From the NCBI RefSeq assembly GCF_040183065.1, contig NC_091120.1:186427627-186491626 (forward strand): a stretch of DNA of 64,000 bases. The letters run 5' to 3'. Under the pieces are notes generated by a model that was not told where the DNA came from, made no database searches, and worked only from the letters and a program-made list of their open reading frames with translations. Positions 5,570 through 29,516 of the stretch are shown piece by piece; the stretch's first letter is position 1, and each line of letters begins with the position of its first letter. This DNA comes from Periplaneta americana. Lineage: Eukaryota > Arthropoda > Insecta > Blattodea > Blattidae. A program made the translations under genes and the position numbers.

Positions 5570-5613
5570 GGCTTACAGCTGTTTCGGTGCCATTCGACAC
5601 CATCCTCAGAACC
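5570..5613 (-). ncRNA. Hammerhead-ribozyme-like motif A1
   Basis: On the minus strand: stem I strand GGTT, core CTGAGGA, an extra T, stem II GGTG...CACC, core GAA, palindromic stem III ACAGCTGT, A at the cleavage position (GTA triplet), then AGCC pairing back to GGTT. The layout matches a type I hammerhead with minimal stem III. The extra T deviates from the consensus. Activity is inferred. Confidence 0.55.
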
Positions 5614-6026
5614 TACTGGATCTCGGCGCTATCTCAACTTCACTGCCTGTTGTGTGGGTGCGTTCGTGTGATGAAGAGTTGTGTTAAATAGTGTGTGTTC
5701 TGAAATTGATCTGTATGTTGAGAATTTGACTGAGGTGTGTTTTAGTGTGTCTGTATATTTCATATTGTTGTAGTGTGTTGAGTTTTTGGTTTTTGGGTTG
5801 TAAGTGTAGGATTTCCATGTCTGTATTTATGTTATTATATGTGTGGTTAGCATTAGTACTAAAACACACCCCAGTCAAATTCTCAACACACACTAAAACA
5901 CACCCCAGTCAAATTCTCAACACACAGATCAATTTCAGAACACACACACTATTTGACACAACTCTTCATCACACGAACGCACCCACACAACAGGCAGTGA
6001 AGTTGAGATAGCGCCGAGATCTAGTA

Positions 6027-6070
6027 GGCTCTGAGGATGGTATCAAGTAGCACCGAAACAGCTGTAAGCC
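6027..6070 (+). ncRNA. Hammerhead-ribozyme-like motif A2
   Basis: Right-arm counterpart of A1. Stem I GGCT (6027-6030) pairs with AGCC (6067-6070). Cores are CTGAGGA (6031-6037) and GAAA (6055-6058). Stem III is ACAGCTGT and the cleavage triplet GTA ends at 6066. Stem II is reduced to about 3 bp (GGT/ACC). Confidence 0.6.
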
Positions 6071-6134
6071 ACACATGCTTACATAATTAACACGAGTAAG
6101 ATCGCCATTTAATCAATTATTTATATTCAAGTGT

Positions 6135-6735
6135 TAAAAGTAGTGTACGAAAGATTCAACATGGATAAAATATTATATTACATACACCACTAAATATAAA
6201 ACAAACTTATTCCCAAATACTCCTTAGAGTTTATAAATGATACCGTAATCAAAAGTAGGCTTATATCTTCTAGATGAAAATTATAACATACTGATCCAAA
6301 ATAATATTTGATACTCTGTTGACATACAGTAAAACAAGGATTAACTTAATAACAATTTATGAGAAACTCCTATATATTAAAAAAAATAATAAAAATGAGA
6401 GAAAGAAACCAAAAAAAAATTGTGGAGCTTGATTTTCTAATTCAAAATATTCTTGCAAGGAATATAACGGGTTTGTAAGAAACCATGTTTTCACTTTTAC
6501 TTTGAATTTGTCTACTGACACTTTCTGTGCTTCTTGTGGTACTGTAACAAGTTAGACATCTTAGAGCCCAAGATATAAGGACTACTTTTAACTTTAGATA
6601 GTTTGCAATATGTTATGTCTAGTTTTTCTTTATTACGAGTGTTATACTCATGTTTATCCATCCTGCTGGTGAAGTCATAAAGATTTTACTTTATGTACAA
6701 AAGGAGTACAGAATAATGGGTTTGTTTTACTGTGC
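6135..6735. other. AT-rich intron sequence of gene 1
   Basis: No exon, element end or RNA motif is seen. It runs up to the polypyrimidine tract and AG acceptor of the exon at 6738. Confidence 0.4.
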
Positions 6736-6737
6736 AG

Positions 6738-6850
6738 GACTGTGGCTGTGGACATGCGAGGATATGGAGACTCAGACAAACCATCTGGACTGGAGAATTA
6801 CCGCATGTCTGCCCTTGTTAATGACATTAAGGAGATTATAGAGGCTCTCG
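6738..6850 (+). CDS. Epoxide hydrolase gene 1, exon with RGYGDSDKPSG
   Basis: Acceptor TGTGCAG precedes 6738 and donor GTATGT follows 6850. The 113 nt read T-V-A-V-D-M-R-G-Y-G-D-S-D-K-P-S-G and end in EIIEALG. The exon enters in phase 2 (completing a W codon) and exits in phase 1 (first base of a G codon). This is the strand preceding the nucleophile elbow of alpha/beta-hydrolase epoxide hydrolases. Length and phases equal those of 49133-49245 in gene 2. The preceding exon of gene 1, expected to carry HGFP, is not found between 1 and 6737. Confidence 0.93.
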
Positions 6851-8008
6851 GTATGTACATTGCTATTACAACTACCATTATCTATACTAATATTATTGCT
6901 GTTGCTACAATTAATGTAGTAGCGTTAATATTAATGGCATTAATATTTCTTCACTAGCTTCTATTTAACTACTGCTAGATAGATTGAAGTGATCTTGAAC
7001 AAACTCATTGCCGTTGCTAAGCAAATGACGTCAGATGTTGAAACTTTCATAGCATTTCATTCATTAGACCCTCGAACATAAAATGCTTCACGTTAAAGGA
7101 GATTCTGAAAATGTCTGCCTTCTTGTTCGAAACATTTTTAGCACCGCTTTAAGAAATTATGTACCAATTGCTGCAGTTTTCTTTGAAAAATGAAGGCAGT
7201 GTTTGCCCACATGCTATTTTCCAGTTCTTCTTAGGTATGATGGTAAATTTTAAAGTTCCTTACAGATAAAGTCACTGACGTTAGGCCAAAGGGGAAAAGA
7301 GGACACATTCCTACTGTGATAATAATTCTATCCTTGAACAATGTATGAAATTCGATCAAAGGTTACTCAGCTGTACTTATGTATAGAACAAGAAGACAGT
7401 TTCAGAATCTTCTTTCTTAATTTGGGTTAATAACTGATTTTTAATTGGTTGTATTTAATAAAGTTTTTCAGTACACAATAGTTATAATTGTCAATAATAT
7501 TGCCAGCTACTTCTACTACTGCTCCTACTGATACTACCTACTTCACTTGCTAATATTTGCTGCTCCTATTCTGTTATTGCTGATATTGCTATTAGCATCA
7601 TGCATTGCAGGCGCTATGTTCTATTCAAGTTTGTCGAGTATGATGAAGTTCGATATTCGCCGATGTTCACTCTGTAGAAGGCAGTTTGTCACGTGTGTTC
7701 GGCCTTGTTATAAAAATATTCGCTGTCCTCCTCCCCCCTTCATGTTTCAAACAAATTAAGAATTTTTAGAAGATATCTTGTGATTATTTTTTCATATGGA
7801 ATAAGACGCATATTCTAATACAAGTGTCTTGGTTGCCTCTCATGTTCGAACATCGCAGGACATTAACTGCTACTACTGGTTTTACTGTTATTGCTACTAC
7901 TACTGCTACTGCCACTACTACTACTTCAATTGCTAATATTTCAGCTGTTATTACTTCTGTTACTGTTGCTGCTACTGCTACTGCTGCTATTAACAACACT
8001 ATTACTGC

Positions 8009-8068
<60 letters not shown>

Positions 8069-8116
8069 TAGGCCTACTGCTTGTTTTAATTCTGCTGCAA
8101 TCTACTGTTATTTTTT
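6851..8116 (+). other. Intron of gene 1 with cryptic triplet repeats
   Basis: The first kb holds nothing recognisable. From ~7500, imperfect ACT/GCT/ATT triplets dominate and lead into a clean (ATT)n tract at about 8006-8066. The hydrophobic or Thr-rich frames here are translations of the repeats, not genes. A similar triplet-rich patch is at 8340-8460. Confidence 0.6.
8006..8066. repeat. (ATT)n microsatellite
   Basis: About 20 uninterrupted ATT units inside a broader triplet-biased stretch. Confidence 0.95.
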
Positions 8117-8284
8117 AGGATTATAATATTTATGATGAACACTTTCACGTGTTAAATGTAAACTACATTCGTAAATATTTAGTTGACTAGTTTCAGTTTA
8201 TTAGTAGCCATCTTCAGAACTAGTTATTTACAAACTTACTTTACATTTAAAACGTGAAAATGTCCATCATAAATATATTCCTAA
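8117..8284. mobile_element. Small foldback element (family B) with hammerhead-like motif
   Basis: The left end TTTATGATGAACACTTTCA and right end TGAAAATGTCCATCATAAA are inverted complements, and complementarity continues through the ACGTGTTAAATGTAA blocks. The central part contains a minus-strand hammerhead-like motif (8171-8231). No coding capacity. Confidence 0.75.
8171..8231 (-). ncRNA. Hammerhead-ribozyme-like motif B
   Basis: On the minus strand: stem I TAGTT / AACTA, extendable by GTAAATA/TATTTAC; core CTGAAGA with the extra T; core GAAA; palindromic stem III ACTAGT; then C, giving the classical GUC cleavage triplet. Stem II is weak (it starts GGC but lacks a clean partner), so this copy may be decayed. 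Confidence 0.5.
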
Positions 8285-8922
8285 GTGATATATAGTGTTA
8301 AAAGTTGTGTAATCCAGATGTACCAGGATGTTATTTTTTGTTACACTGCTACTGTTACTTCTGTTAATATTATTTCTGTTACCAGTACTGCTGGTACTGA
8401 TACCAATACTGTGGCTATTTCCCTTGGCAATAGTAGCATTCCTACTAACAATTCCACTGCCGTTCACTGATTTTCAGATTGTCAATCTATTGTATATATT
8501 ACATTTTCTCTGTAAATTAAAAGTGTCAATACATAGATCTATGTATGTAGAATGCAGAATAGAATATCAATCTTTCTTCAGTGTAAAATTTACTCCCTGA
8601 ACTAGTCCTAAATTACAGAGTGTTTATCCATTGAGGTCGAATTATGTGTATTCCACAGCTTCTAGGTACCAGATATTGTAATTAGATATCGTTTGTGCAC
8701 CATACCAGTGAATATATCAGTAAAGGCACTCGATGACTTTTACAATTCTTGTGGTGCTGAAAAACGTAATCACCTTGATGTGAAAATATTTTTCACCTTC
8801 ATACAATAACTGGTTTCCCAGATAATCGCACGTTTTCGTTCATATATTTAAATAATTTAATTTCAATTGTACTGTTACTGTTTCTATCATGTGTAGTGCT
8901 TAAATATGGCTGTATTGTTTAG

Positions 8923-9091
8923 GACATGAGAAGTGTGTTCTGGTAGCACACGACTATGGTGGCGCTATTGCTTGGAATTTTGTCATGACCCACCCAGAGA
9001 TGCTGGAGAGCTACATTATCTTGGACGCACCCTACTCTCCATCAAACCTTAAGATCATGACTTCAAACTTGTACCAGTTCCTTAAGTCATG
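8923..9091 (+). CDS. Epoxide hydrolase gene 1, nucleophile exon (HDYGG)
   Basis: Acceptor TGTTTAG precedes 8923 and donor GTGAGT follows 9091. The 169 nt encode G-H-E-K-C-V-L-V-A-H-D-Y-G-G-A-I-A-W-N-F. The Asp in H-D-Y-G-G is the expected nucleophile that forms the hydroxyalkyl-enzyme ester. The exon continues through Y-I-I-L-D-A-P-Y and ends in LKSW with the Trp codon split by the intron. Length and phases equal 54794-54962 in gene 2, which has HDWGG at the same place. Confidence 0.95.
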
Positions 9092-9366
9092 GTGAGTATG
9101 GTACAAATAGCTAAACACAATCTAGTGCATTAAACTTACTGATCTATGATAGATCTATACGCAATTCCTGTAGCAAGCAACCTTGCAGAGCTTTATTATA
9201 AGCAGAGTAAAACCTGAGTTGTACATAAGTGAAGGGAAATTATTAAATTATGCACAATTTAGAACTACGTATAAATAAGGTTTGAATATAACAACATTCG
9301 AGTGATAAGGAATCAGTTTATAAAACGTATTATATGACTTTCACTTGTTAAATTTTAAGTTACCTT

Positions 9367-9405
9367 GTTAATATGTTTCGGCCTGCTGTCAGCCATCATC
9401 AGAAC
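9367..9405 (-). ncRNA. Hammerhead-ribozyme-like motif E
   Basis: On the minus strand: stem I GTT / AAC, core CTGATGA followed by T, short stem II GGC...GCC, core GAAA, near-palindromic stem III ACATAT (one mismatch), and an ATT cleavage triplet. It is the least perfect stem III of the set. It adjoins family A-like sequence (9440-9560). Confidence 0.45.
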
Positions 9406-9439
9406 TGATTGTTGCTGGTCTTGGCGCCTTTTTTTTGTT

Positions 9440-9900
9440 TCCTGTAGGGGTGTGTTTATGTAGTGTAATGTGGAGTCAAAGAGTGTGTGTGTTCTGAAAT
9501 TGAGTTATGTGTTGAAAATTTCATTTGGATGTGTTTTTGTGTGTGTGTATATTTCGTATTGTTGTTGTTGTTGTTGTTTTCTAATGCCAGGCATTTGACA
9601 ATAAAGTCATTTGACCTCTTGCACTCCAATACTTTTAAAAGATATTGTCATGGTTAGCCACTGATGCACAGATTTTGAGATGTTCTGAATCCATTTCTTG
9701 ATTTGAGTTGCACAATGGACAGTTAGGAGACTGATATATTCCAATTCTATGCAGATGCTTGGCCAAACAGTCATGCCCTGTTGCCAATCTAAATGCAGCT
9801 ACAGACGATTTCCGTGGTAAATCGGGAATTAACATATTTCGTATTGTTCTAGTGTGTTTAGTTTCTGGCTTTTTGGTTGCATGTGTAGAATTTATTATTA
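9440..9900 (+). mobile_element. Family A foldback fragment interrupted by a LINE
   Basis: GT-rich blocks (GTGTGTTCTGAAATTGA, TATATTTCGTATTGTTCTAG) match the arm interior of the elements at 5505-6132 and 27830-29585. The fragment is split by a 270-bp minus-strand LINE insertion at 9564-9833. Confidence 0.65.
9564..9833 (-). pseudogene. 5'-truncated LINE, RNase H/zinc-knuckle end
   Basis: On the minus strand the 3' end of a LINE ORF2 is seen, with I-P-D-L-P-R-K-S-S-V-A-A-F-R-L-A-T-G-H and a C-x2-C...H...C zinc-knuckle-like end (CPLC, EHLKIC). It closes with a (GTT/AAC)n tail. The insertion is bounded by a 15-bp target duplication ATATTTCGTATTGTT at 9549-9563 and 9834-9848. The same family, longer, is at 13385-14275. 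Confidence 0.88.
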
Positions 9901-10389
9901 TTATTATTGTTATCCAAATATTGAAACCCTATTTTATCCTTTGGTATATTAGGATTGTAGATTGTTACATGTGAAATATATTATGTAGAGATAATACACA
10001 ATTTTAAAGAAGTAGTAGTAGGCATGAGTCATAGTTACAATATGAATACACTAATTAATAGACAGTAAACAATACTAAATACATTATGCAATAATTACAC
10101 TCAGTTAAAACAAAATTAAATAAATTAGAAATTATAATCGAAGGTGTAGTGAGATTGCAAGAATATGACATAAATTTGCGATTTTATACATAATTTTAAG
10201 CAATAGTAAAGAGATAATGCACAAAATTGACTTAGTTACAAACTAAACGCCTATTATATAGGTGGTTTGCGGAAGTAAAGAAATAAAAACAAAATTACTT
10301 ACGGTTACAAACTCTATACCTGACATCAAATACTGAACAATAGTAAAATCCACAATACAAACATAGTTATTGTTCCATTTTGAATCTTG

Positions 10390-10532
10390 CGTACACTACT
10401 TTTAACACTTGAATATAATTAAATGATCAACTAGTGGACTTACTAGTGTTAATTATGTAAGAAGCACTGAAACAGCTGTAAGCCGGACAAATCTTACATA
10501 ATTAACACTAGTAAGTCCACTAGTTAATCATT
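10390..10532. mobile_element. Internally deleted family A foldback
   Basis: ACTAGTGGACTTACTAGTGT and its reverse complement face each other across ~30 bp that contain TGAAACAGCTGTAAGCC, the 3' half of hammerhead-like motif A. The CTGAGGA half is gone, so this copy cannot form the core. Confidence 0.75.
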
Positions 10533-10829
10533 TACCGGTAACTTAGTTATTGTTGTTATTACTATTATTATGTCCCAAAGAGAGACAACTTGTTTTAGAT
10601 AGTGCATTAGGATTTTATATCATCATTCATTTACATACACTTAATAGCTACAGTCTTGCGTAGATGTGGTGGATAAACTCTGTGAATTGTTTATAACAAT
10701 ATTTTTTCCTAAGAGATCTTCTGCACTTTTGATCCTAAATCTTTCAAAGTAGGAACCGATGTGTAGAATTTCCATGTCTGTGTTGATGTCTCTGTATGTG
10801 TGGTTAGTATTTGTAATTTGTATACATCA

Positions 10830-10922
10830 GTTGGAAGTTTACTAGTATAGGGGGTGGGAGTGAAGTACATTCACAAACTCAGGTACAATAAAAATTGAAG
10901 TAAAAATAAAATGATGTCCCTG
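10830..10922. mobile_element. Solo right end of the TA-inserting transposon family
   Basis: Only the last ~93 bp are present, ending AAATAAAATGATGTCCCTG followed by TA. It is the same family as 3265-4347. It lies just 49 bp upstream of an exon of gene 1. Confidence 0.8.
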
Positions 10923-10971
10923 TATAAGATGAGTCATAACAACATTTTAACTCTTTTTCTTGTCAAAACAG

Positions 10972-11132
10972 GGATGTGTTCTTCTTCCAACTGCCTTACC
11001 TGCCAGAATTCATGTTCAGAGCTTACGACTTGGTGAGACTGAAGCATCTGTTCAGAGGATCAACACCCAAATCACTGTCACCCGTCACAGAGGAAGACCT
11101 AAAGGCCTACAAGTACACTTTCGGAAAATCAG
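10972..11132 (+). CDS. Epoxide hydrolase gene 1, cap-domain exon
   Basis: Acceptor CAAAACAG precedes 10972 and donor GTAAAC follows 11132. The 161 nt complete the split Trp, then read D-V-F-F-F-Q-L-P-Y-L-P-E-F-M-F-R-A-Y-D and end A-Y-K-Y-T-F-G-K-S-G. This is the lid/cap region, and its tyrosines are candidates for the residues that polarise the epoxide oxygen. Length and phases match 61932-62092 in gene 2. Confidence 0.93.
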
Positions 11133-11139
11133 GTAAACG

Positions 11140-11700
11140 ATCCATTGTAAAATTTTATACTGGTACTGGTGTATTACCTTTGAAGAAAATAATTTAATGA
11201 GCAAAATAAATTTAATTTATAATTAGAGTTGTAAGAAAACACCCAAGCCTACAACTATACACGGTTCTATTGCTCTGTACATTAAAATGAGTACAAACAA
11301 CTTGTCATCGGATTGCAGTTTATTCCATTAGACCGATTAAGGGCAAAAACGCATCCCTTCTGTTCAACAACCCGTGTATGATGATTAGATTCGCATGATA
11401 TTATACGAGAACATTGGACATTTAACGAGAATTCCACTCGCTCTACGAATTTAGTTATACACGCTTTTATGGCTCCACATTTGATAATATTAGGTTTTAA
11501 TTTTGTATATTTTTAGTATTTTTATTGACTTTATTGACAACAACACAATACATTTGAGATACCATACAAGGGCATCTACTTTGTATAGCTAAACAAATTC
11601 ACAATGTTTTAAATTAAATTTGTTTTTAATATTTTGACAGGACATTTAATGTTGGTATAGATAATATTGTCACTATGTCATATTTTATTCTAGTCATGGC
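11140..11700. other. Intron of gene 1, unassigned
   Basis: A/T-rich, with no element ends recognised. The T-rich sequence from ~11500 leads into the hammerhead-like motif at 11752 and could be the body of the same element. Confidence 0.35.
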
Positions 11701-11751
11701 ATTTTCAAATGTAAAACTTGTATTGTAATTGATTTTAAATGATACTTATTT

Positions 11752-11797
11752 CTTGTACCTGAAGATGCCCCATTGGGGCGAAAATGTTAGTATCAAG
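11752..11797 (+). ncRNA. Hammerhead-ribozyme-like motif C
   Basis: Stem I CTTG-TAC pairs with GTA-(T)-CAAG. Core CTGAAGA (11759-11765) is followed by T, stem II GCCCC-ATT-GGGGC (5 perfect pairs), core GAAA, stem III AATGTT (near-palindromic with one G-U) and a TTA cleavage triplet ending at 11789. It is the best stem II of the set. Confidence 0.55.
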
Positions 11798-12229
11798 ATT
11801 AAATAGGATGTAACACATCAATATTTTCTTTCATATGTTTTCTTTCATATGTAATTCAATGCTTAAGCCATATTGACGGAATAAATAATTCATCATATTT
11901 TGATATATGTCATTAAAATAAATCTAGTTTTCTCGCCTATGATTTTAAGATAGGCCTAGTATATCTATTGTAGTGATGAAGATAGTTCAGTCACATTGTT
12001 TCCCAGTCCAGTTGATATAAAATTTATTTGAAAAAAATGTATTTTTTCCTTCTCCTTGTGGTTTCTTACTTTTATTACATCTTAGTGACTTATTAAGGCA
12101 TCATTCCCCTTCATTTAGGTCTTCTTAACAATTGCTTCTCATTTGACTTATAATTTAGAATTTTGATGTGAGATAATAAAATCATTTATCCTACTGCAAG
12201 CACATTATTTTTCTATTCGGTTTTATATT

Positions 12230-12524
12230 TATGTAACAAAAAAAAATGCAAGTGAATTTTTAAGAAAAAAAATACTAAATAAAAATGGAAGGATCACAAA
12301 TGTAGTAAAGATATTCATAGTGAATTAAAAACTGAACTCGTTTTGTCAAAAATTAATAAATACAAAACTAACTACATCCAACATCTAAAGAGAATTAACA
12401 GGGACAAAATTGCATAGTCAGTTCTCAAATACAGACCATAGAGTAGAAGAAATCAAGGGCGTCCTCTGAAGAGACTTCTGGATGACTGAGTCACAATAGG
12501 TTATACGGCCCAACTCCATGATAG

Positions 12525-12560
<36 letters not shown>
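12230..12560 (+). pseudogene. LINE C-terminal relic with (GAT)n tail
   Basis: The + strand reads, with stops, K-I-N-K-Y-K-T-N-Y-I-Q-H-L-K-R-I and then Q-G-R-P-L-K-R-L-L-D-D. The G-R-P-x-K-R pattern is common just before the end of RTE/Jockey-like ORF2 proteins. A (GAT)n repeat at 12530-12560 is its 3' tail. Confidence 0.6.
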
Positions 12561-12797
12561 AACAGTGTCATTTCTAATTCCTAAAGAATATTTGTATTTA
12601 TAGATGTTTCTACCTAGCTTGGTACAGTACCAATATATAAGTCAGTTTTCCTAAAGAACTTAATTTAATTTCCTAAAAGTTTTTCCATGACTCATTACCA
12701 AATTTAAACATGGATCGAGCCAAACTATATTGAAACAAAAGGAGGAAGGATCATGACGTGATGAAGCTAAGAGCCTAGTTATACCTGCATTTTCTCG

Positions 12798-12935: not shown

Positions 12936-12972
12936 TACAAGATGGTGAAATTGATAACTGTCTCTTTTATAG

Positions 12973-13384: not shown

Positions 13385-14275
13385 ATTAAACCAAACCCTT
13401 TAACTCTATTAAATATAGAATATAATCTAAATTTAACAGAAGAAATACTGAAATCAGAAGTAAACACTGAAATAATGAAACAATTGTCTTTAGGGATAAT
13501 TAATATTAGGTACCCTCCACAAAACTGGCTTCATTTATACACCGACTGATCCTTGATCTCCAGAGAACAAGGTGCCGGTGCAGGTGTTACGTGCTGTCTC
13601 TTGTCACTTTATAGATCTCTTGGATATGGAACAACAAGTTTTGATGGAGAAATCGTTGCAGTAAGTGAAAGTCTCAGGAATCTGCTATGCCACATCAATA
13701 AATTTAAGAATGCAGTTATATTGTCAGACTCCAGAGCAGCTATTCTATCAAAAATCCCCTCTCAATTAATATCACTCAATAAAAGAATTGTATTCCAATG
13801 GATACCATCCCATTGTGGAATCCTGAGAAACGAGAATTCGGATGCATTAACAAAGAAGGGCAGCACTGCTACTTACAGACCTGTTACTAAATCTACATAT
13901 TACTCTGTGAAAAGATTTATTAAATCTACATACTTAGACTTCAACAAACAAAATTTGATAACACAATCACAAGAGAAAAAATGGAACTCTCTGCATCATA
14001 ATCCACAGTTAATTCCCGATTTACCACGAAAATCGTCTGTAGCTGCATTTAGATTGGCAACAGGCCATGATTGTTTGGCCAAACACCTGCATAGAATTGG
14101 AATATATCAGTCCCCTAACTGCCCATTATGCAACTCAGACCAAGAAATGGATTCGGAACACCTCAAAATCTGTGCTTCAATGGCTGACCATGATAATATC
14201 TTTGAAAAATATTGGAGTGCAAAAGGTCAAATGACTTTATTGTCAAACGCCTGGCATTAGAAAACAACAACAACA
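13385..14275 (+). pseudogene. LINE ORF2 3' fragment: RNase H domain and zinc-knuckle tail
   Basis: From ~13387 a frame reads ...Y-P-P-Q-N-W-L-H-L-Y-T-D, where the RNase H D-G-S motif is broken by TGA at the Gly codon. It then continues open to 14260. Further RNase H acidic residues are visible: E in F-D-G-E-I-V, D in S-D-S-R-A-A, D in N-S-D-A-L-T-K-K. A C-P-L-C...E-H-L-K-I-C knuckle follows. The copy ends in AAC repeats (~14262-14274). The family matches 9564-9833. It is a dead copy in the terminal intron of gene 1. Confidence 0.88.
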
Positions 14276-18007: not shown

Positions 18008-18533
18008 ATCTTCTTAATGTATCCAGCTGTTTGCTGACAACATAAAGTCCACTATAGTCCACTGTAGTCTATTCAGTTGTTGTTTTTCACGAGAAATGAG
18101 GGGTATTTTGATCGGTGTTCATTATAGATGCCTGTTGCTAGTAGCCAGAGGTGGGTGTAGTCAATATATACTGCAGGGCTGTGTCTTCTGCAACTGGTAC
18201 TGATGATTTTAATTTACTTCTTTTGTGGTTTATGGATGGACAGTATAGAAGAATGTGTTCCAGATCTTCATCATGATTATTACACCACAGACAAGTAGGA
18301 TTATCAAAAATGTGAAATTTGTGTAGGTACAATTGAGTGACAATGTGACCTGTTCTGGCTCTTGTTAAAAATGTTTGAACATATCTGGGCAAGTTTTTGT
18401 ACATTTCCAGGTCATTTGGTTTCTTTTTTACAGACTGTAAAATTTTTCCTTTGTCAGAAGAGAGCCAATTGTTGATCCATAGGTTTGTAAAATGAGACTT
18501 TACTGAAGCAAAAGCACTGGATAGAGATATCAA
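18008..18533 (-). pseudogene. LINE ORF2 C-terminal fragment, longer copy of 15022-15490
   Basis: On the minus strand a 131-codon frame contains W-I-N-N-W-L-S-S-D-K-G-K, then T-R-A-R-T-G-H-I-V-T-Q-L-Y-L-H-K-F, then a C-L-W-C-N-N...H zinc-knuckle-like end. The 3' end is marked by CAGCTGGATACATT and an ATTG tetranucleotide tail at 18000-18012. It is inverted relative to 15022-15490. Confidence 0.85.
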
Positions 18534-18539
18534 AACAAA

Positions 18540-19365
18540 GACAAAGACAAAAAGTGCAATACCATTCTAAACGAAGCAGAAATTATCCTTCAAGCACCCA
18601 GCAAAACTGCAATAACAGGATTCAAGTTAACTAAAGAAAATGACTGTCTATGAAAACATCTAAACAAAATAGAAATTTACATCAAATCACTTTGCTCCCT
18701 AATTGATAAAAGGAAATGACAGAAGATCAACTCAAAATTTGTGACCTTACAGGATCCATAACAGGAATAATGGCTTTAACAACAAGAGAAAAATATAGCT
18801 GTTATCTACGTAGAAAATAAATGACGGATACATTAGCAAAGGGCAATGGCAAATCGCTGTAATTGAACATTTCAAATTCTAAAGAAATATTTTCATATCA
18901 TATATTAAAACATGAAATGATCACAGCAGTTAATATATAAATTGTGCAAAGGTCAGCACCAGCAGGATCATGTGCAATAAAATATAAATAGAGCAGATCA
19001 AACAGCTTGATCAAAATTGAAAAGTGGATATTCCAAGAAAATGAGAATAACAGCTTCAGAAAAACGTTTCCAGCTCTGTGAAAAACAGGAGACACATTGC
19101 TATAACAAATTCTCTCCCGCTTTGAAAATGCATTAAGTAATATATACAGTCAACCTGCATTATTGAACTGTCTACATTTCTGAAATTAAAATTTTGCTAC
19201 TTCAGGCTCCACCTGCAATAGAATTGGAATGATTGAAATCGAAAATTTTTGGTTAGATTAAGTTTTTCAATTAAGTTCCATAGCCGATCATAAGAAACAA
19301 AGTTCTTGTCTCAAAGCAACAGTACATTTCGTTTTTAATCTTATCTTTTTATGATCAAGTTAACC
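18540..19365. other. Unassigned sequence
   Basis: Probably more LINE remains of the adjoining family, but too decayed to show motifs. Confidence 0.3.
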
Positions 19366-19932
19366 CCAGCAATCAAGTATCAAATATCTGTAGGTTTATT
19401 ACAGTCATATTACTTATCAATAGTACACATGTTGAACCATTATGATATTACATGAAATGGTACAGCATATAAAAGTTTTTGACAAACGTTTTTGCCAACT
19501 TCAGCTTCTCCTCAATCATTTTGTAAGTACCTTTAACCACGCCTTCAAAATTAATATTTCTCTTCTTAGTTCTCAATTTAATAAATTCTCTTACATTACC
19601 CCATTATACTTTTACAGGGCTTTGATTTCATACGCCCATTAAATAGCAGCACGAGCGACCTACATACTGTAGCATGTTTTATTATTTTGGGAACTGCATC
19701 TGCCTGTATTTGAAGATTGTTATGCTTTTATTCTATTTCTTTGTACACTTATCAATCAGTACAGTGTTAATTGCCTATTCTATGTTCTTCATGGCGTTAA
19801 TTTCATGCTACATGTATATTTTTAATGGCATATGTTCAAACTGTCTACTACACCAGTTTTTAAACTTTTTAACGATTGTTTCACCTGAATATTTTAAGTG
19901 TTCATCATGTGTTATTGTGTTCTCCTTTAATA

Positions 19933-19972
19933 TGACCTGAAGATGCCATGGTTATGGCGAAAACGTTTGACA
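19933..19972 (+). ncRNA. Hammerhead-ribozyme-like motif D
   Basis: Core CTGAAGA (19937-19943) is followed by T, stem II GCCAT...ATGGC, core GAAA, perfect palindromic stem III AACGTT, and a TTT cleavage triplet ending at 19968. Stem I on the left is TGAC. Its partner here is GACA (one base off), but the opposite arm (~19480-19500) preserves GTCA, which pairs perfectly with TGAC. The element therefore once had a matching stem I. Confidence 0.55.
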
Positions 19973-19988
19973 AAAACTTTTATATGCC

Positions 19989-20966
19989 ACTAGCCGTACC
20001 CGTGCGCTCCGCTGCACCTGTTAGAAATAAATATGACGTAATTACATAATTAAAATAGGACGTTTGATCCAGGGAACATTCGTGTTTGATAGAAGGATAA
20101 ATCGTTTAATATATTACTTAATTTAAATTGTATTTAAATAACTAAAATGCGGTCATTTTGGTCCAGAGAGCAATCATTTGGTGCAATGACAATTTCCTTT
20201 AAAATGTTTCTTAATTGTTATTACATGTAACCATAGTTTAATGACATATCATTTAGTTTTAATGTGTATACTTTATATTACTTGCTATATGTTTCAGAAG
20301 TTACTGTAATAACACTGTAGAATTATGTCCATCTAGAGAAACTACACTTTCCAATGGTGAAATAATAATTAAACAATTATTAGCTTCCGATATTACTTCA
20401 TACAAACACAGAAACATTCTCTTAGGCTATGTTTAATAGCTTTCGATTGTTGTTGTCCAAGGCCCCTTATAGACGAAGTCATTTGTTTTTATTTCAGTAC
20501 AGCGCCTTAGATGGCGTTGTTATTGTAATTTTAAAACTCATTTATCTCATTAAATATCAATCCTATCAAAATTTTGTATAGAATAAAACTTATCGGAAAT
20601 TATGTTTAAAGAAACTTTTGTTATGTAATATTTTTCATGAGAATCAATAATAAGCGAGATACTTCGATTTATTTAATTTAGGCCCCCTTATAACCCCCTT
20701 TTAAATAAAATATTTTGAATGCCATATAGCCTAAAATCTAAGTTACAACGAACTGAATTTATATTCCAATTTTCATATAAATCGGTTCAGCCATTATCGC
20801 GTGAAAAGGTAACAAACATCCAGACAGACAGACAAACAAAAATTTCAAAAAAGCGATTTTCGGTTTCAGGATGGTTAATTATACATGTTAACACCAATTA
20901 TTTTTGGAAAATCGAAAATTACTGTACCAGAAAAATTTCGGGTACAGATTTATTATTAGTATAGAT
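19989..20966. mobile_element. Nested interspersed repeat starting ACTAGCCGTACCCGTGCG
   Basis: It starts with an ACTAGCCGTACCCGTGCGC block typical of a widespread arthropod repeat type. It contains GGTTCAGCCATTATCGCGTG and a CAGA tetranucleotide run at ~20820, and ends near TTATTATTAGTATAGATTT. The final block recurs at 27228-27275, and the middle (20530-20760) is inverted at 2100-2420. No coding frame. Class uncertain (RTE-derived or Helitron-like). Confidence 0.55.
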
Positions 20967-21059
20967 TTCATGTAATATCATAATGGTTCAACGTGTGTAC
21001 TATTGATAAGTAATTTGACTGTAATAAACATATTTGATACTTATATTATACTTATCGGA

Positions 21060-21965
21060 CCCAACATGCCTTTAAAATTGCCAGCAATCAAGTTTACCCC
21101 AGTTTATGGTATGGAAAATAGTTCATTTTAGAGGAAATAGGGAAGAAGTAAACCACGCGATATACCTTGTAAGGTTATTCCTAACATATCTTACTTCCTC
21201 TTAGAAAAAATTGAAATGACGCTCCAGAAATGAAGACAAATTTAAAAGGTAAAACAGAAGTCAGAAACAAATAAATTAGTGTAAATTTGAAAAGTCATAA
21301 ACCTCAAGAGTCATTTCTCAGGAGAGAAAGAAAATCTGATTTATTTACTGAATTTTGATTGCTTTCAGATGGATCTGATCTCAGTTCCCGCCTGTGAACA
21401 TGTTTCTGTTCCTCAATTAGATTCACTACAAACTGAAACACTTCCCCGCTCCTGGTGTAGCATGTGGTGCCCATTTTATGTACTGTCGCACATCTGATAC
21501 ACTGCTTTTGCTATCCGGCACCTTTAACAACCTCAGAAATCATCCTTTGAGTACTGTAGATTGTTTCTCATGTATCTTTCATTTTATTTGTAATGTTGAT
21601 CCACTCATATTTTCATATAAATTTGTTCATTATATTCACATATTAAAATCAAGAAAAAGAGCGCTAGTTCCTTGTATTGGTGCAACAAAGGGGTGGTTTG
21701 TGAAATTATTCTATTTAAGAAAATAAAATAAAGACAAATTATCCTGAATTCGTACATATTGTTTAATCACGAACGTAAATAATTTAATCATTAGAGGGAA
21801 AAAATATCACGTAGGACACCTTCCAACTCTTCCTACTATCGAAACTGTCACAGGAAGCTAATCTTAATTATTCAGAGCATTCGCTTACATAATGTAGGTT
21901 GACTGGGTGGCACACGACCGACATGAAGGCCATGTAACACGCAGAAAACCAACTCCCGCGTGTTT
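21060..21965. other. Unassigned sequence
   Basis: No gene or repeat boundary recognised. Confidence 0.35.
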
Positions 21966-21970
21966 TGCAG

Positions 21971-22362: not shown

Positions 22363-22752
22363 GATATGTGGGAGACAGTTTACCATATGTTGCATGGCAA
22401 GCTACCTGATCGACCTACATGTATATGTGTATGTATAAAGTCAGTTTTAGAAATAGGTATCCATTTTCTGTGACACAATGCAGACATCATTTTTTTCTTT
22501 GAAGAAATATCCAATAAATAAATATTTCAACAAGTGTAACAAAAGATTATATTAACTTATATTTGGCCAGATCTAGATATTTTCCAGATTTTTAATTTTG
22601 TAGGCTTTCACTAGAAAGCAAGTTATAGAAACTTATTGTTCACAAGTAGTTACATTACCTCTGATTGAGGTTCTGGCTGATACATACATCTATTATCAGG
22701 CAGTACATTATACTTGATGATATGTCAGCTTTAGCCCCCTTTCAATATTGTA

Positions 22753-23145
22753 CAGTAGTGGCAAAAAAAACCGGTCTGACCCTTGTAGCTGATTTCAGAG
22801 TCACAGATTCAAATTTCGCTAGTCACAAAACACATCCATCTTGTATAATTAAGTGTAACAATGAAATTTATTGCATTTGTTCGATTCTTACCATCTTTCG
22901 TTCCCTTCAGTGCCTCAAACTTACAGACGAAAAAACTTTGAGAGTTTTATTTTGATCTGGCATCAATATTACATTTCTACCTCTAGTCGGCAAAGATAAC
23001 TGCGTATTTTTACATTAAATAGCAGTAGATAACTCTGGCTTCACTATCCATATTGAAATTACCACAGTTTGACACAATACACAGCACAGGATTCTTTCGT
23101 ATCAGCTACAAGAGTTGGTCTGTTTTTTTTTTTTTGCCACTGCTG
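22753..23145. mobile_element. Tc1/mariner-type MITE, 393 bp, TA target site
   Basis: The left end CAGTAGTGGCAAAAAAAACC and right end TTTTTTGCCACTGCTG are inverted. An inner CTTGTAGCTGAT is mirrored by ATCAGCTACAAG. TA is present on both sides (22751-22752 and 23146-23147). No coding capacity. Confidence 0.9.
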
Positions 23146-23149
23146 TACA

Positions 23150-23735
23150 TAATGCATTGTTTTAACCTCATGCATTCCTGCTTCATTTCTCATTGACTCT
23201 ATAGTTCGCATGCAACAAATATATCTTTTTGTTAATCCAGGCTTAACTTTGGAACTATATTTATATTTTAAAATATGGTACTCTAATTCCTGAAGGTGTC
23301 AGATTTGTTACTGGCACATAAATTTGTCTGGAGGATGATACTTCAGATACTAAATTAATTGGCTTTGGTGAATATGGTCACAGCTTCACTTGCTATAATG
23401 AACAAATAATGATTATTGATGGTAATTGCTTATAAAAATTTCTCCAGGTGGAGACACCAGTTGTTGTGGCTGCTGCATCATAATGTGTCAACATCTACAT
23501 CTGTAGCAGAGCACATTCCACAGAGAGGAAAATAATGGTAATTTTATTAATTAAATGTGACTTTTTTTAATGCAATTTGTAGTCTAGAAAGTTGTATATA
23601 ATGGAACTGTTAAGTTATATTATAAAATAAAAGAAAATAAAGTAATATTTAAAAATATATATAGATGTCTATCTTTGCTACTTATTTCTAATCCTTTTTC
23701 TTCATTTGTTTCTTTTTTTTACAACATAGACGTAA
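23150..23735. other. Unassigned sequence
   Basis: Nothing recognised. Confidence 0.3.
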
Positions 23736-23739
23736 GTAT

Positions 23740-24600
23740 ATTTTTTATTTCACAGAAGCAATATTACTGACTCCATTGAAGAACTATTTCAAAAGTTTGA
23801 GACAGACATTATTACTCTTGAAAACTGGTTAAGTGCAAATAGGCTTCCTTTGAATTGGAAAAAAACTGTGTATACGATTTTTAGTAAACTTTCATTTTAT
23901 TATATTATTCCGAAAGAATTAAAGTTTAATGATTCTGTAATACAAAAAGTTGCATCAGTTAAATTTTTAGGTTTGATTGTTGATGAACATTTAACATGAG
24001 ATAAGCATATTTTGGCTGTCTGTGAGAAAATTGCTTGCTCCAATGTCTGGTATTTTGAAAAGGCTTAAAAGATCTTTGCCTATATCTTGTCTCTTGAATG
24101 TAGCCTATATTATGCTTTTATCCATTCTCATTTAATGTATATGTAATTTATTTGGGGACATAACAAGAAAACTGCCTTGAGACCTTTACAAATTATTCAA
24201 AATAGAGCTTAAAGAAATTTATTGGGTTTTCATTATTTGACTCCAGTTAAATATCTATATCAATTTTCTTTCGTTCTACCAGTTGAATCAATTCTCAAAT
24301 TAGGTGCTGCCATTTTCATGTACAAAGTTATTAACAATTTAATACATAGTAATATCACATTTCAGTTTAATAAAGATATACATACTTATTTAACAAGACA
24401 AAAAAGACAATATTTTTTTTTCTCAGCATAGCTCCGTAACTTATGGAATGAAAGGACTTAACGATTTTTAACAACAACTTTTAACCAACTTCCTTTAGAA
24501 CATAGACTTTTAGCAAATTGCCGGTGTTTTAAGAATTATTTAAAAATACGTTTTTGGGAAGATTATTTATTTTAATTCTCAGTTGATTTATTGATTTCAT
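23740..24600 (+). pseudogene. LINE reverse transcriptase C-terminal relic
   Basis: Broken frames read L-E-N-W-L-S-A-N-R-L-P-L-N, then S-V-K-F-L-G-L-I-V-D-E-H-L (the post-catalytic V-K-(F/Y)-L-G block of LINE RTs), then R-A-x-R-N-L-L-G-like, and finally L-G-A-A-I-F-M-Y-K-V-I-N-N-L. Many stops are present. Related in layout to 40480-41396. Confidence 0.75.
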
Positions 24601-24609
24601 GGTTTCAAA

Positions 24610-25970
24610 CTTCTTCCTCTTTCTGCCCAAAACGTTATGTTATCTTACTATTTGTTCTTATTTTGGTTTCTTCCTTTAATAAATTCTTGTGTAATTGTTT
24701 GTTTTCACAGACTGTAGTTTCATGACTTTTTCAATTACATTGTACAACATATGTATGTGCTCTTGTATAGCCCCTACATACGAATTATACTTGTTGGGAC
24801 ATATTCAATGAATTAAAAAAAAAATTACCCAGGGAACATGAGAAATGGTATTGTTACCCCTTAATCCGAAAGATAATACATTAAAATCACACCTACAGAA
24901 AGAGCGGCCTAGGAGACCGGTTCATGATTGTTTCCATGAGTAATTTAGACACTTTTAATTCAAGATAATATATTTTTATCAATAAACACATATTGTGCAA
25001 TAAATATTATTAAAATATTTCATTCAAGCTTATTTAGTTTTATCAATTAACCAGAAGTAGGTTATAGATGTGTACAGGAACATCTGCACTACCAAAGTTT
25101 TTAGTGAATTTGGTAATAGCAGGTAGACCTCGAATAATATTGTGTGAAGGCGTTTTTCTGGTTTTTTGTTGGGGTTGGCTGTGCCATACAAACTTGTCTT
25201 CTCCAAGATAAATACGTCACTTGTTGGAGAAGTATTAGGAAAACGAGGAGGGGCTGTTTCATCTCTATTCTCATCTGGCAACTTCATTAGGGATTTGTAT
25301 GTCTATCTCTAACAACTCGTCATTGACTGTGAATCTGATATTTCGGTCTCATTAGCACTAGGGATGATAAAATCAGAGTTTGGGAAAAATCATCGAAATG
25401 TGGGCATTCACCTACTTCCTTTTCATCATCAACTTCATCTTCATCTTCTAGTCAGTGGTGCATTATTTTCCGAAAATTAGGATCAGGGGCATAATTGACA
25501 TGGTGGGATATGTTTGTAGTAACTGTGGGACAAAATAAAAACTAATTATCGAAAAAAATTAAACAAAAACATACAACAATATTGAAGTTGACGAGCTCAT
25601 CTCTTAGTATAGCTATTTATTGCTTCTAAAATAATATGTTTAATAGCTCTATATATATATATATATATATATTTCTTCCTATAACCATTACAGGTTGCCA
25701 TTGACAAAGAGTACCATGATACAATAAATATAGAGAAATACCTTGAGGCTTTATGAAACATATTTTTGTTGTTACAGTAAACAATAACAAATTGAAATAG
25801 ATTGAAACACAAAATACTATACGATGTAACGTCAAAAAGATGTGAATTAAAGACATGGTCCATGCATATAATGCCTGAAAATAGCTATTGATCCTTTGCT
25901 TCTTTATGTATCAAATATGAATGAGGTCTCGCCCACCTCATTATATTTTGCTCGACTAGTATGACTAGTC
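24610..25970. other. Unassigned sequence with a (TA)n tract
   Basis: No gene recognised. A (TA)n dinucleotide run lies at 25649-25672. Confidence 0.4.
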
Positions 25971-26009
25971 AGTTTGTTTTTATACCATTAAGTACGAGAA
26001 AAATTCGTA

Positions 26010-26084
26010 CCGGCACCGGGAATCGAACCCAGGACCTCTCAGCTGTGCGCGCTGAGTGCTCTCTAACCAACTGAGCTATGCCGG
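26010..26084 (-). ncRNA. tRNA-like sequence (SINE head or tRNA pseudogene), minus strand
   Basis: On the minus strand it folds as a tRNA. The acceptor CCGGCAT pairs with GTGCCGG over 7 pairs with one G-U. A box TAGCTCAGTTGG, anticodon stem TCAGC/GCTGA and B box GGTTCGATTCC are visible. The loop GCGCACA has C at position 33, where T is expected. Non-tRNA sequence GTACGAATTTTTCTCG follows, so a tRNA-derived SINE is more likely than a functional tRNA. Confidence 0.65.
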
Positions 26085-26099
26085 GACCCGATTCACGAC

Positions 26100-26780
26100 G
26101 CTGGCCGAACTCCTCTCGTAGTATCGTGTTACGGCCTTTGTTTTTAAAATAATGTGTTTAATCTGTAACTACAGTCACTGTATTGTTATTAGTATCTCTT
26201 TAATGTGTCATTTTAAGTCAATTTTTCTACTATTCCTTTGCTGTTTACATTTGTTTTTAAATCTTTTGTATTGTCCCTACTATTATATATTGCCCTTCAA
26301 GAATTTCGTTAGTTATAAGTCATTACTTGTCTTATTATTTTAATTATTTTACTTGTTCCTGAATCACGTATGTAACTTGTAATCCGTAAATCATTGCTTG
26401 TAATATCCTTTTATTACTCTTAACTGTTCCATTGTTCATGGTTTAAGTATTAATTTGAAAGTGAAAGTCAAACTTTGTTATATTAATGCATTATTGATTA
26501 TCTTTTTAGATCGTGTATTTACTCTGAAACGGTTAGACATTCTTGTATATATCTTTGAATTGATTATTCCTCAAACATCTCATTAATCTTTAATAGGATC
26601 CATTCTTTCTTTAAGGTGCATTCTTCTACACAATTCATGTGAATTGTAACCTTGACCACAATTTTGTTTATTGGTTATAAAATATGTATTTTGATGCCAA
26701 CTATAACCCTAATATACCTCAGGGTGAAATGGGTTTATTAAATTGGATAAAAAAATTGACGAACTATTAGGTAATACGAT
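26100..26780. other. Unassigned AT-rich sequence
   Basis: Nothing recognised. Confidence 0.3.
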
Positions 26781-27275
26781 ATACCGGTCTGTGAGACAAA
26801 TGTAGCAGACAGTAATTACCGCAGAAAACAAGGGTTAAAATGAAGTTATTACCATAATTCAATGGAAACATATAGCAAGTAATATAAAGTATACACATTA
26901 AAACTAAATAATATGTCAATCTTCATTAAACTATGGTATTCACTTAACTTTAACTCTTGCTTTCTCCGTTTTTAATAAATGGCGCTTGGCCCACTATGGC
27001 TCTGAACCCTTCATCTATAGTATATTATTATGTTTTGTCTCAATTTTAATCTTCTTAATCTTTAGATGAGGGTAACTATTTATTAGTTATTCATTTAATT
27101 ATAATATTGTAGAAAAGCTGATTCAATATTATGTGCCAACGAACTGTTAAACGCCAGGAATTGACATGTCTTAAATCATAGCCAGGAAGAGAAAGATGAG
27201 ATAAATAAATGTAAGGAAGTGAGCCAAATTACCAGAAAAATTTCGGCTACAGATTTATTATTAGTATAGATTTTG
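26780..27275. repeat. Second copy of the 431-910 foldback family plus repeat tail
   Basis: ATTCAATGG...CATATAGCAAGTA and TAAATGGCGCTTGGCCCACT match the element at 431-910. The segment 27228-27275 (CCAGAAAAATTTCGGCTACA and on) matches the end of 19989-20966. Confidence 0.65.
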
Positions 27276-27308
27276 AACATTTTTAAAAGTTTTTAAGCTA
27301 CCTAATGG

Positions 27309-27615
27309 GGTTTGAAATATCTCGTGCTCTAAAGCCTTTTAATAGAACAGAATTTCTCAAAAGAGTAATGAATAAAATAGCTTAAATAACTTGTCTATAA
27401 GAAATTTTTAATTTTGAAAAACTACGAATTTCTCGACCAATTAGTATCGAGAGAAGAATTTAGAAAATTCCTGATTATATTCAAGAGGAAGGTTAAAAAA
27501 GAAGCAAGAAAAATCGTATATTGTTCACTGGTTCTTGATGACAGCAGTGACATTACTGATACAGCAAAGCTTGAGATTTTTATCCGCGGGATTGATCAAG
27601 ATGTTAGTACAGGAA
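27309..27615 (+). pseudogene. hAT transposase fragment (ZBED/GTF2IRD2-like)
   Basis: From 27309 the frame reads F-E-I-S-R-A-L-K-P-F with one later stop. The next open frame has F-L-D-Q-L-V-S-R-E-E-F and then L-D-D-S-S-D-I-T-D-T-A-K-L-E-I-F-I-R-G-I-D. The D-(D/E)-S-(T/S)-D-x-x-D-T-A-x-L-x-I-F-(I/V)-R pattern is characteristic of hAT transposases of this branch. The rest of the gene is missing. Confidence 0.75.
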
Positions 27616-27733
27616 CCACCACTGGTTGTAGTTTTCATGCCAAGTACCTCTCCCCCGTCTCCTTACTTCATAGGCTCTCTCTCGCGTGTAATCACTCCAG
27701 CTCGAGTTTTGGCCACCGCTGCTTTATATTGAA

Positions 27734-27735
<2 letters not shown>

Positions 27736-27778
<43 letters not shown>

Positions 27779-27779
27779 G
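27736..27779. repeat. (AAT)n microsatellite
   Basis: About 14 AAT units. Confidence 0.95.
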
Positions 27780-27890
27780 ATCATATAATTTAATAATTAA
27801 ATTTCCACGCATTGTGTTAAGCTTCAATACTATGAAATAAGTAATTGATTAACTAGCGGACTTACTCGTGTTAATTATGTAAGTCTGTGC

Positions 27891-27934
27891 GGCTTACAAC
27901 TGTTTCGGTGCTTCATCACACCATCCTCAGAGCC
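27891..27934 (-). ncRNA. Hammerhead-ribozyme-like motif A4
   Basis: Minus strand: stem I GGCT / AGCC, core CTGAGGA then T, stem II GGTGTGATGAAGCACC, core GAAA, stem III ACAGTTGT (one G-U), GTA cleavage triplet. All core bases intact. Confidence 0.6.
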
Positions 27935-28089
27935 TACTAGATCTCGGCGTCATCTCCAACTTCTCTGCCTGTTATGTGGGTGCGTTTGATTGTTGAAAGG
28001 TGTTGAAAAGTGGAGTCAAATAGCGTGTGTGTACTGAAATTGATCTGTGTGTTGAGAATTTGATCGGGGTGTGTTTTAGTGTGCTTGTA

Positions 28090-29210
28090 CAGGGACATCA
28101 TTTTATTTTTACTAACATTTTTAATATTAACCTGGCAATATCTTTTGATTAAAGGTCTAGAACAGGAAACACCGCTTGCTCCCCCTTCCAAGACTGGAGT
28201 TCGATGATGCTGGCGTAAAATACAAATCACTTTACTAGGTATAGGAGGGAAGAAAAGTTGTTCATCCATTTATGTAAACTAGGAAATATCGCAATTTTGA
28301 GTTTGATAATTTTCATTACGTTTTTGTTTAATCAGAATAAAGTACTGTATTAACACTTAGTGTTTTTACTCACGAACTGAATTATCCATTAGGATGTATT
28401 AATTATGCAGTGTATATTGTACTGTTACAGCACATTAGCGTACAATTTAGAGAATGAAGTTAAATTGAAAAATAATCATAATACGGATATTTAAACACAT
28501 TTTTGAAAATGATGGCCGTTAATTTCGATATAGGCTTCAGTTCTTTTGTGCATATTATCGCACTATAGTCTATTGTGCCTAATTCCAATTACCAGTTTCG
28601 TCCTTCGTACCAGTAACTCATGTTGAAATAATTCTGTACCTACTCTATAAAAGAGTACCTTACGTACTGTAAATTCAATCTTCACTTCTGCCCTATCCGA
28701 AAAGATAAAATTACTCAGACATGCTATCTACTGTCTCTCCAAGTGGTTATGTCGCAGGGTCGCAGAAAGGGAGGGAATCACGTGACAGTTAACTACTTAA
28801 CGAGGCCCTTTTATTTAAGTTATTTTATTTATTGTATGGGTACAGTATTACGTAGACGTCCAATTCCTAACAGAAATGTTCTCAGAAAAGAGCTAAGACA
28901 GCCCAGCCACTAGCCTTTACAGAGAAGCGAATAGAAGCAGGTGGGGGAAACCGGGATGCGACGTAGGCAAATGGACGGCAGTATTTGTGCGAAAATGATT
29001 CAATATTGAAAGCTCTTTCGTTACTGGAAAATGCGAACATATTTTTGGAACGTACTGTTTACTATAACTGTAAGGTTACTATGACTGTATATGCGGTCTT
29101 GGATCTGTGTGGAGGACGGTTGAACTTCATTAGTAGAAGGGGTGGGAGTGAAGTACATTCGAAAACTCAGGTACAATAAAAATTGAAGTAAAAATAAAAT
29201 GATGTCCCTG
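28090..29210. mobile_element. TA-inserting DNA transposon, copy 2, nested in a family A foldback
   Basis: It runs from CAGGGACATCATTTTATTT to AAATAAAATGATGTCCCTG, with TA at 28088-28089 and 29211-29212. The host sequence without it reads TTGTATATTTCG, matching the uninterrupted relative at about 5748-5760 (CTGTATATTTCA). The copy thus shows its own empty site. 1121 bp, no intact ORF. Confidence 0.93.
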
Positions 29211-29472
29211 TATATTTCGTATTGTTCTAGTATGTTGAGTTTTTGGTTCTTGGAAATCCTACACATACAACCCAAGAACCAAAAACTCAACACACTAGAA
29301 CAATGCGAAATATAGGCTACAAACACACTAAAACACACCCCGATCAAATTCTCAACACACAGATCAATTTCAGTACACACACACTATTTGACTCCACTTT
29401 TCAACACCTTTCAACAATCAAACGCACCCACATAACAGGCAGAGAAGTTGGAGATGACGCCGAGATCTAGTA

Positions 29473-29516
29473 GGCTCTGAGGATGGTGTGATGAAGCACC
29501 GAAACAGCAGTAAGCC
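29473..29516 (+). ncRNA. Hammerhead-ribozyme-like motif A5
   Basis: Stem I GGCT (29473-29476) pairs with AGCC (29513-29516). Cores CTGAGGA and GAAA are intact and stem II is GGTG...CACC. Stem III is ACAGCAGT, where one substitution breaks the palindrome. Cleavage triplet GTA. Confidence 0.55.

Follow-up and report, generated by a model that had tools for sequence, protein, structure and literature searches.

A 64,000-nt stretch of contig NC_091120.1 of Periplaneta americana (hereafter the window) contains eight motifs which layout, invariant residues and covariation identify as type I hammerhead ribozymes, and which would be expected to cleave RNA. They are very probably hammerheads with a minimal, palindromic stem III, located in the pseudo-long terminal repeats (pLTRs) of five families of Penelope-like elements (PLEs). 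These ribozymes are mostly of an already known kind and represent new members of the set of PLE hammerheads. As one genome harbours five families, with 40 or more matches for each, the hammerheads, tails and insertion joints of PLEs can be counted together.

A preliminary description of the DNA had pointed to eight sites, and a check on both strands found every one of them in place. They are given below with the insertion (E1 to E7) in which each is located and the search that recovered it.

5567-5617, minus strand: predicted hammerhead in the inverted arm of E1 (descriptor and covariance models)
6023-6073, plus strand: predicted hammerhead in the direct arm of E1 (descriptor and covariance models)
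8178-8225, minus strand: predicted hammerhead in E5, near the palindrome tip, with a decayed stem II (covariance models)
9363-9410, minus strand: predicted hammerhead in E6 (descriptor and covariance models)
11751-11796, plus strand: predicted hammerhead in E7 (descriptor and covariance models)
19929-19975, plus strand: predicted hammerhead in E4, with stem I partner GACA where the family has GTCA (covariance models)
27888-27938, minus strand: predicted hammerhead in the inverted arm of E2 (descriptor and covariance models)
29469-29519, plus strand: predicted hammerhead in the direct arm of E2 (descriptor and covariance models)

The descriptor was composed of CTGANGA, n inserted bases, a stem II of at least 3 bp, GAAA, 2-12 nt, UH and a stem I of at least 3 bp. 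With n = 1, six sites were found in the window, the inserted base being T in every one, while n = 0 or n = 2 gave none. From 200 dinucleotide shuffles, 0.045 sites per window were expected for n = 1, with a maximum of 1. The common layout initially proposed for all eight sites was recovered in six by this strict descriptor, while the sites at 8217(-) and 19937(+) failed. The core and the GAAA are unchanged in all eight, with one U inserted after A9; stems I and II are intact at six sites and decayed at two. At 8217(-) stem II is broken; most of the family copies read have GGCT/AGCT. It had also been claimed that the partner strands of stem I change to match. This was found across families but not at 19933, where the window reads GACA instead of the GTCA quoted; the GTCA partner is present in the inverted arm of E4 itself (about 19465-19497).

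Covariation was evaluated in an alignment of nine rows from the five families, and is asserted between families only, not within them. Paired cells reached 96.0%, compared to 62.7 ± 3.9% with shuffled partners, and 34 cells were changed on both sides, compared to 13.9 ± 2.7. The covariation score was 0.919, against 0.295 ± 0.055 after shuffling and at most 0.106 for slid structures. Changes on both sides were seen in all four pairs of stem I, three of four in stem II and two of three in stem III. At the family level, the first three stem I pairs form in 15 of 15 cases; 2 of 120 partner reassignments do likewise, which is the minimum possible because these three pairs are identical in E5 and E6. 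The invariant columns (C3, U4, G5, A6, G8, A9, the extra U, G10.1, G12, A13, A14, A15.1 and U16.1) correspond to the conserved residues of the hammerhead with the addition of the extra U and G10.1. Position N7 varies, and H17 is never G, the nine rows having A, C or U there.

A covariance model made from the nine rows detected all eight sites at E ≤ 1.1e-5 (next match at 0.58), a result that is circular for the rows used. With the E1 and E2 rows omitted, the four E1/E2 sites were detected at E 2.9e-5 to 5.2e-5, followed by the next match at 0.78. The shuffled nine-row test and this left-out model bear out the preliminary claim of covariation between families that chance would hardly produce. 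Chance motifs are excluded by the descriptor shuffles, the covariation and the left-out-family model.

The insertions carrying the motifs were delimited as follows.

5518-6164, plus strand: E1, PLE-type insertion with an inverted arm to 5750 (untailed) and a direct arm at 5888-6164 (3' tail), 93% identical; target-site duplication (TSD) ATAAAATAT at 5509-5517 (left) and 6165-6173 (right)
5730-6011, plus strand: stop-to-stop frame of E1, which includes the C-terminus of the GIY-YIG frame, of the same family as the frame of locus L292 presented below
8117-8328, plus strand: E5, short head-to-head PLE-type insertion whose right end bears the 3' tail; TSD TGTTATTTTTT at 8106-8116 and 8329-8339
9290-9566, minus strand: E6, a diverged lineage represented by its 3' end, the frame ending as in E1; extra pieces at 9834-9893 and 10761-10815, separated by later insertions
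10375-10543, minus strand: E3, E1-family copy in head-to-head form with an internal deletion, retaining no more than the 3' half of a hammerhead (plus strand, about 10464-10484); TSD TAGTTATTGTT at 10364-10374 and 10544-10554
11640-11860, plus strand: E7, end repeat of a separate family; no inverted partner found in the neighbourhood
19379-21080, plus strand: E4, head-to-head insertion, left end untailed and right end tailed, the right arm interrupted by an insertion of later date (about 19990-20964); TSD CCAGCAATCAAGT at 19366-19378 and 21081-21093
27840-29609, plus strand: E2, E1-family member in head-to-head form; other repeats interrupt it at about 28090-29205; TSD ACTATGAAATA at 27829-27839 and 29610-29620

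The TSDs of the five complete window insertions measure 9 (E1), 11 (E2, E3 and E5) and 13 bp (E4), and each insertion has one tailed end, in agreement with the one-tail pattern reported below. Inverted pLTRs, a short TSD of variable length and a one-sided tail, which are hallmarks of PLEs, were all present. The kinship to PLEs proposed in the preliminary description was borne out by the inverted arms, the TSDs, the one-sided tail and the GIY-YIG frame of the E1 lineage; for E4, E5 and E7 it is the insertion structure that suggests PLEs. Long inverted repeats would also be expected from foldback DNA transposons or from chance palindromes. Such an origin is hardly credible here, given TSDs of variable length (9-14 bp), fixed end sites, a tail on one side and a retained retroelement coding remnant.

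The genome (3.23 Gb, 91 contigs) was searched using one query per context, and 40 candidates were scored for each. At least 40 family matches were obtained for E1, 44 for E4, 41 for E7, 85 for E5 and 46 for E6. First-look candidates amounted to 959 (E1), 615 (E4), 853 (E7), 1102 (E5) and 3803 (E6); with 40 scored out of 615-3803, the true family numbers are larger. For E1, the 30 best of at least 40 matches were examined, using a query that included the tail. All 30 loci reach the same 3' end (query 276 or 277), which was favoured by this query. An inverted arm was detected within 1.5 kb upstream in 15 of the 30. It starts at query position 234-243 in 14 of these (the last 34-43 nt are missing) and at 195 in the other, and the tail, which the query contained, is absent from all 15. 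Matches of at least 9 bp between the two flanks of the same locus were found in 13 of the 15 loci, compared to 2 of 210 cross pairs. Of the two arm pieces of L258 the outer was used, and L248 and L262 were without match. In the E7 family own-flank matches were found in 9 of 13 loci (7 of 11 distinct insertions), compared to 1 of 156 cross pairs.

Exactly one tailed end was present in all eight distinct complete head-to-head insertions of the E7 family, with L302/L304 and L303/L306 merged and L297, L305 and L312 left out due to a truncated end; no TSD was found for L298. The same holds for the three complete insertions of the E4 family (L283, L285 and L268, the inverted arm of the latter being a 37-nt tail piece alone), with L269 and L273/L277 left out, where one arm stops at position 182. 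Taken together, one tail per insertion was observed in 11 of 11 complete insertions of the two families, and tails were not favoured, since the E4 and E7 queries ended short of both ends. Near the tail end, CAACATG and its variants are common to the E1, E4 and E7 families, a sequence which we take to be a good start-codon context; a start of the open reading frame (ORF) at this place is a guess. The tail stretch AGTGTTAAAA is common to the E1 and E5 families.

The pattern of one tail per insertion in the E4 and E7 families is possibly a new point. Independent strand choice would also yield two-tailed and untailed insertions, so that the rule, if valid, favours a coordinated asymmetric step or self-priming. 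Twin priming at random sites was considered for the inverted arms and is disfavoured by the clustered arm ends (query positions 234-243 in 14 of 15 E1 loci, and 263-283 or 318 in the complete insertions of E7). Self-priming is the preferred model in PMC3846280, where a tail is optional on one arm, and two start sites with the strands behaving alike in vitro are reported in PMC11167929.

The same ribozyme type is present in retrozymes, small non-autonomous elements made of tandem repeats, which carry type I hammerheads and propagate through circular RNA. Animal retrozymes have been reported from insects among others (PMC7229834), and most of the copies read here are without a long open frame. 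Tandem hammerhead copies were nevertheless not found: none of the 30 E1 loci has a direct second arm within 1.5 kb upstream, the pairs being inverted instead, and among eight loci of 8 kb one direct arm only was detected (89% identical, 6.5 kb away). With inverted arms, TSDs and a tail in their place, and with part of a GIY-YIG frame in the copies, retrozymes are a very unlikely explanation, and the assignment to PLEs is preferred.

The preliminary description of stem III as self-complementary, or nearly so, was confirmed, as the majority sequence is a perfect palindrome in each family parsed. In the E1 family, ACAGCTGT was found in 26 of 29 parsed loci (one of 30 could not be parsed). AACGTT was found in 15 of 18 parsed loci of the E7 family (2 of 20 unparsed) and ACTAGT in 5 of 6 parsed stretches of the E5 family (4 of 10 unparsed). 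Seven loci of the E6 family, from stretches picked among 46 matches and all parsed, gave ACATGT four times and ACATAT once. In the E4 family, the entire string GAAAACGTTTGTCA is present in 16 of 20 loci, with L273 and L277 overlapping at one place. The imperfect palindromes at 9367 (ACATAT) and 11752 (AATGTT) are minority variants of the E6 and E7 families.

Two copies of the E1R site are predicted to fold into a double hammerhead with an 8-bp stem III at -28.7 kcal/mol, against -8.7 kcal/mol for one copy. A full double hammerhead was predicted for E1R only. Palindrome pairing was obtained for two of the eight sites, E1R and E1L, the latter showing this pairing alone, and different pairings were predicted for the other six. 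In complete insertions the two hammerheads are inverted and located on opposite strands, a placement which is possibly a new point as well. A transcript of such a pair would comprise one hammerhead and one antisense copy, so that dimers need two transcripts; with copies inverted and not in tandem, the published within-transcript dimer cannot arise from a single insertion.

The extra T between A9 and G10.1, noticed in the preliminary description as shared by all sites, was present in eight of eight. A likeness exists to the hammerhead of the chrysanthemum chlorotic mottle viroid (CChMVd), which differs in having a stable stem III. In the plus-strand hammerhead of this viroid, an extra A is inserted between A9 and G10.1 (PMC3705267). 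The departure from the standard core that had been suggested is no break, as its position is that of a published tolerated insertion. The natural extra base is A in the viroid, whereas it is T/U here. Replacing this A by U increased the trans-cleavage rate 3-4 fold, and U was the best extra base at that position (De la Pena and Flores, 2001, as cited in PMC3705267). The extra U may thus be a core residue that is tolerated and possibly favourable.

In viral contigs of IMG/VR (loci L001-L120), a U likewise follows A9 in many predicted three-stem hammerheads. Two pattern scans were run on viral contigs, and distinct sites were counted among the matches listed, excluding those close to a locus end. 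Among these, 70 of 122 extra-T sites form stems I and III of at least 4 bp each, while 0.4 were expected from shuffled downstream sequence; 103 of 131 sites without the extra T fold likewise, while 0.55 were expected. The extra-T variant is thus not rare, and an extra U after A9 appears as a recurrent natural core variant in the genome of P. americana and in viral contigs. No published PLE hammerhead with an extra U was met in the literature searched, which did not cover Cervera 2014 and Lunse 2017. Prompted by the ORF start of PAc, a Poseidon PLE of Anolis carolinensis, the extra T was also considered as part of a start codon (A9-U-G10.1 reading AUG). This idea is not supported, as the frame from that AUG runs into a stop after 2-18 codons in the copies read of each of the five families (the stop following codon 2 in E2 and codon 3 in the majority of E7 copies), although splicing could rescue it.

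Upstream of the hammerhead, the arms of E1, E2 and E6 encode the end of a reading frame, whose stop in E1 lies about 20 nt before C3. The frame of L292, a longer copy of the E1 family, contains GVYKLTCNSCDSFYIGQIGRSFQTRYKEHI and shows a GVYK..YIGQ..R layout, presumably that of GIY-YIG endonucleases. Comparison with NCBIfam gave the GIY-YIG endonuclease TIGR01453 at E 1.4e-4, below the cut-off. Protein P0006, 52% identical to the L292 frame, is above the Pfam GIY-YIG cut-off (26.1 vs 22.6 bits), and P0007, another homologue and a GIY-YIG domain protein according to its source, reached 29.5 bits for RVT_1, with a cut-off of 29.6. No reverse transcriptase (RT) match was obtained in the element copies themselves that were scanned with Pfam. 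Among 25 homologues, 12 are named Periplaneta americana proteins; a homologue search with a 65-aa piece gave no match.

From these data a course of events can be proposed. The RNA would be cleaved after the NUH triplet, acting as a dimer of two molecules joined by the palindrome and/or with the aid of an element protein, as reported for PAc. The endonuclease would cut the two strands of the target at positions 9-14 bases apart, and reverse transcription would begin at two internal sites, one at the tail end and the other some 33-43 nt short of it. Head-to-head joining of the two complementary DNAs would then produce a complete insertion with the ribozyme in both orientations. It is possible, but unlikely, that integration uses a pair of RNAs joined via their stem III palindromes, each target strand priming on one RNA from different start sites. 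If true, head-to-head insertions with exactly one tailed end would result, and the palindrome would serve template pairing as much as cleavage. The one-tail rule and the opposite-strand ribozymes would constrain PLE integration and the role of PLE ribozymes, which is called a mystery in PMC7761336.

Several points weigh against active hammerheads in PLEs. The alignment rows were registered to the structure by hand with N padding and rows of one family are related, so that the alignment counts lean toward the structure; 92 of 500 shuffles had at least as many pairs with two-sided changes. No inverted arm was found within 1.5 kb in 15 of the 30 E1 loci, which may be longer or one-sided. The Pfam matches in the element copies themselves are sub-threshold (GIY-YIG-type in L292), no genome copy was found to combine RT and GIY-YIG in a single frame, and the protein evidence is confined to the E1/E6 lineage. 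If E1 is transcribed in full, the ribozyme is predicted to pair with its own inverted copy. Finally, the Rfam hammerhead models, proposed in the preliminary description as a check, gave no hammerhead match at the window sites. Rfam was dropped as a decisive test, as it misses hammerhead-like sites of viral contigs with and without the extra T. At the gathering level (score 48.5), nothing was detected in ten viral-contig loci with extra-T sites (one of them, L013, also has a site without T). Among three loci with a site lacking the T, two scored 18-20 bits (E 2.2 and 7.8) and the third gave no match, so that the Rfam negative carries little weight.

A further objection comes from PAc, where hammerhead mutants were without effect on insertion in vitro (PMC11167929), indicating that the ribozyme may be dispensable for transposition. 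The same result would be expected from a conserved RNA hairpin that is bound by the protein of the element and has lost catalysis. The residues invariant between families are, however, exactly the catalytic ones and H17 is never G, which goes beyond the conservation of stems alone. A purely protein-bound hairpin is thus considered improbable, and hammerheads that probably cleave remain the favoured interpretation.

Other features of the window were recorded. Exon-like pieces on the plus strand (about 6740-6850, 8920-9090, 10975-11130 and 13041 onward), with the E3, E5, E6 and E7 sites between them, resemble by eye an alpha/beta hydrolase, presumably of the epoxide hydrolase type. Two further long inverted repeat pairs of 93-97% identity are located at 9566-9833/14008-14275 and 15050-15483/18053-18486. 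Frames at 13550-14257 and 18141-18566 gave RNase H (sub-threshold) and zf-RVT matches, so that these repeats are apparently copies of long interspersed nuclear elements, unrelated to the hammerheads. At 37035-38650 on the minus strand, two overlapping RVT_1 frames (E 1.1e-25 and 1.4e-8) belong to a broken retroelement of unsettled class, and a tRNA-Cys gene or pseudogene lies at 26007-26085 (minus strand).

Minimal PLE hammerheads are reportedly the subject of Cervera and de la Pena 2014 and of Lunse, Weinberg and Breaker 2017. The preliminary statement that palindromic minimal stems III are known from PLE hammerheads agrees with PMC7761336 and PMC6466107, in which type I motifs with almost no stem III, a palindrome pairing two copies and a location in pLTRs are described as here. 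The copies described there are in tandem, whereas they are inverted in the complete insertions of the present families. Hammerheads in repeats of another insect, Aedes aegypti, similarly have a palindromic stem III and loop III and were proposed to form dimers (PMC3088659); a location at PLE ends and an extra U are not mentioned in the parts of that source consulted.

PAc has a hammerhead at its pLTR as well; an ATG is located where its stem II begins, and the cut site follows 26 bp later (PMC11167929). The predicted cut site here is 25-30 nt after the A9-U-G10.1 ATG. The insertions of PAc also end at internal start sites beyond the cut site, and its targets are likewise AT-rich. The ORF of PAc starts at that ATG, in contrast to the short frames found here, and its reverse transcription starts 111-118 bp into the ORF, while the tailed ends here lie roughly 128 (E1), 165 (E4) and 193 (E7) nt after the hammerhead ATG. 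In the Penelope elements of Adineta vaga (PMC3846280), the word hammerhead is absent from the main text. These elements have a low copy number, in contrast to the 615-3803 first-look candidates per query, but an inverted pLTR also completes the insert, with a 9-bp TSD, a 31-bp tail on one inverted pLTR and an inverted pLTR that is 37 bp shorter. The PLE anatomy described in PMC3846280 and PMC11167929 is the same as that of the window insertions, which supports their assignment to PLEs.

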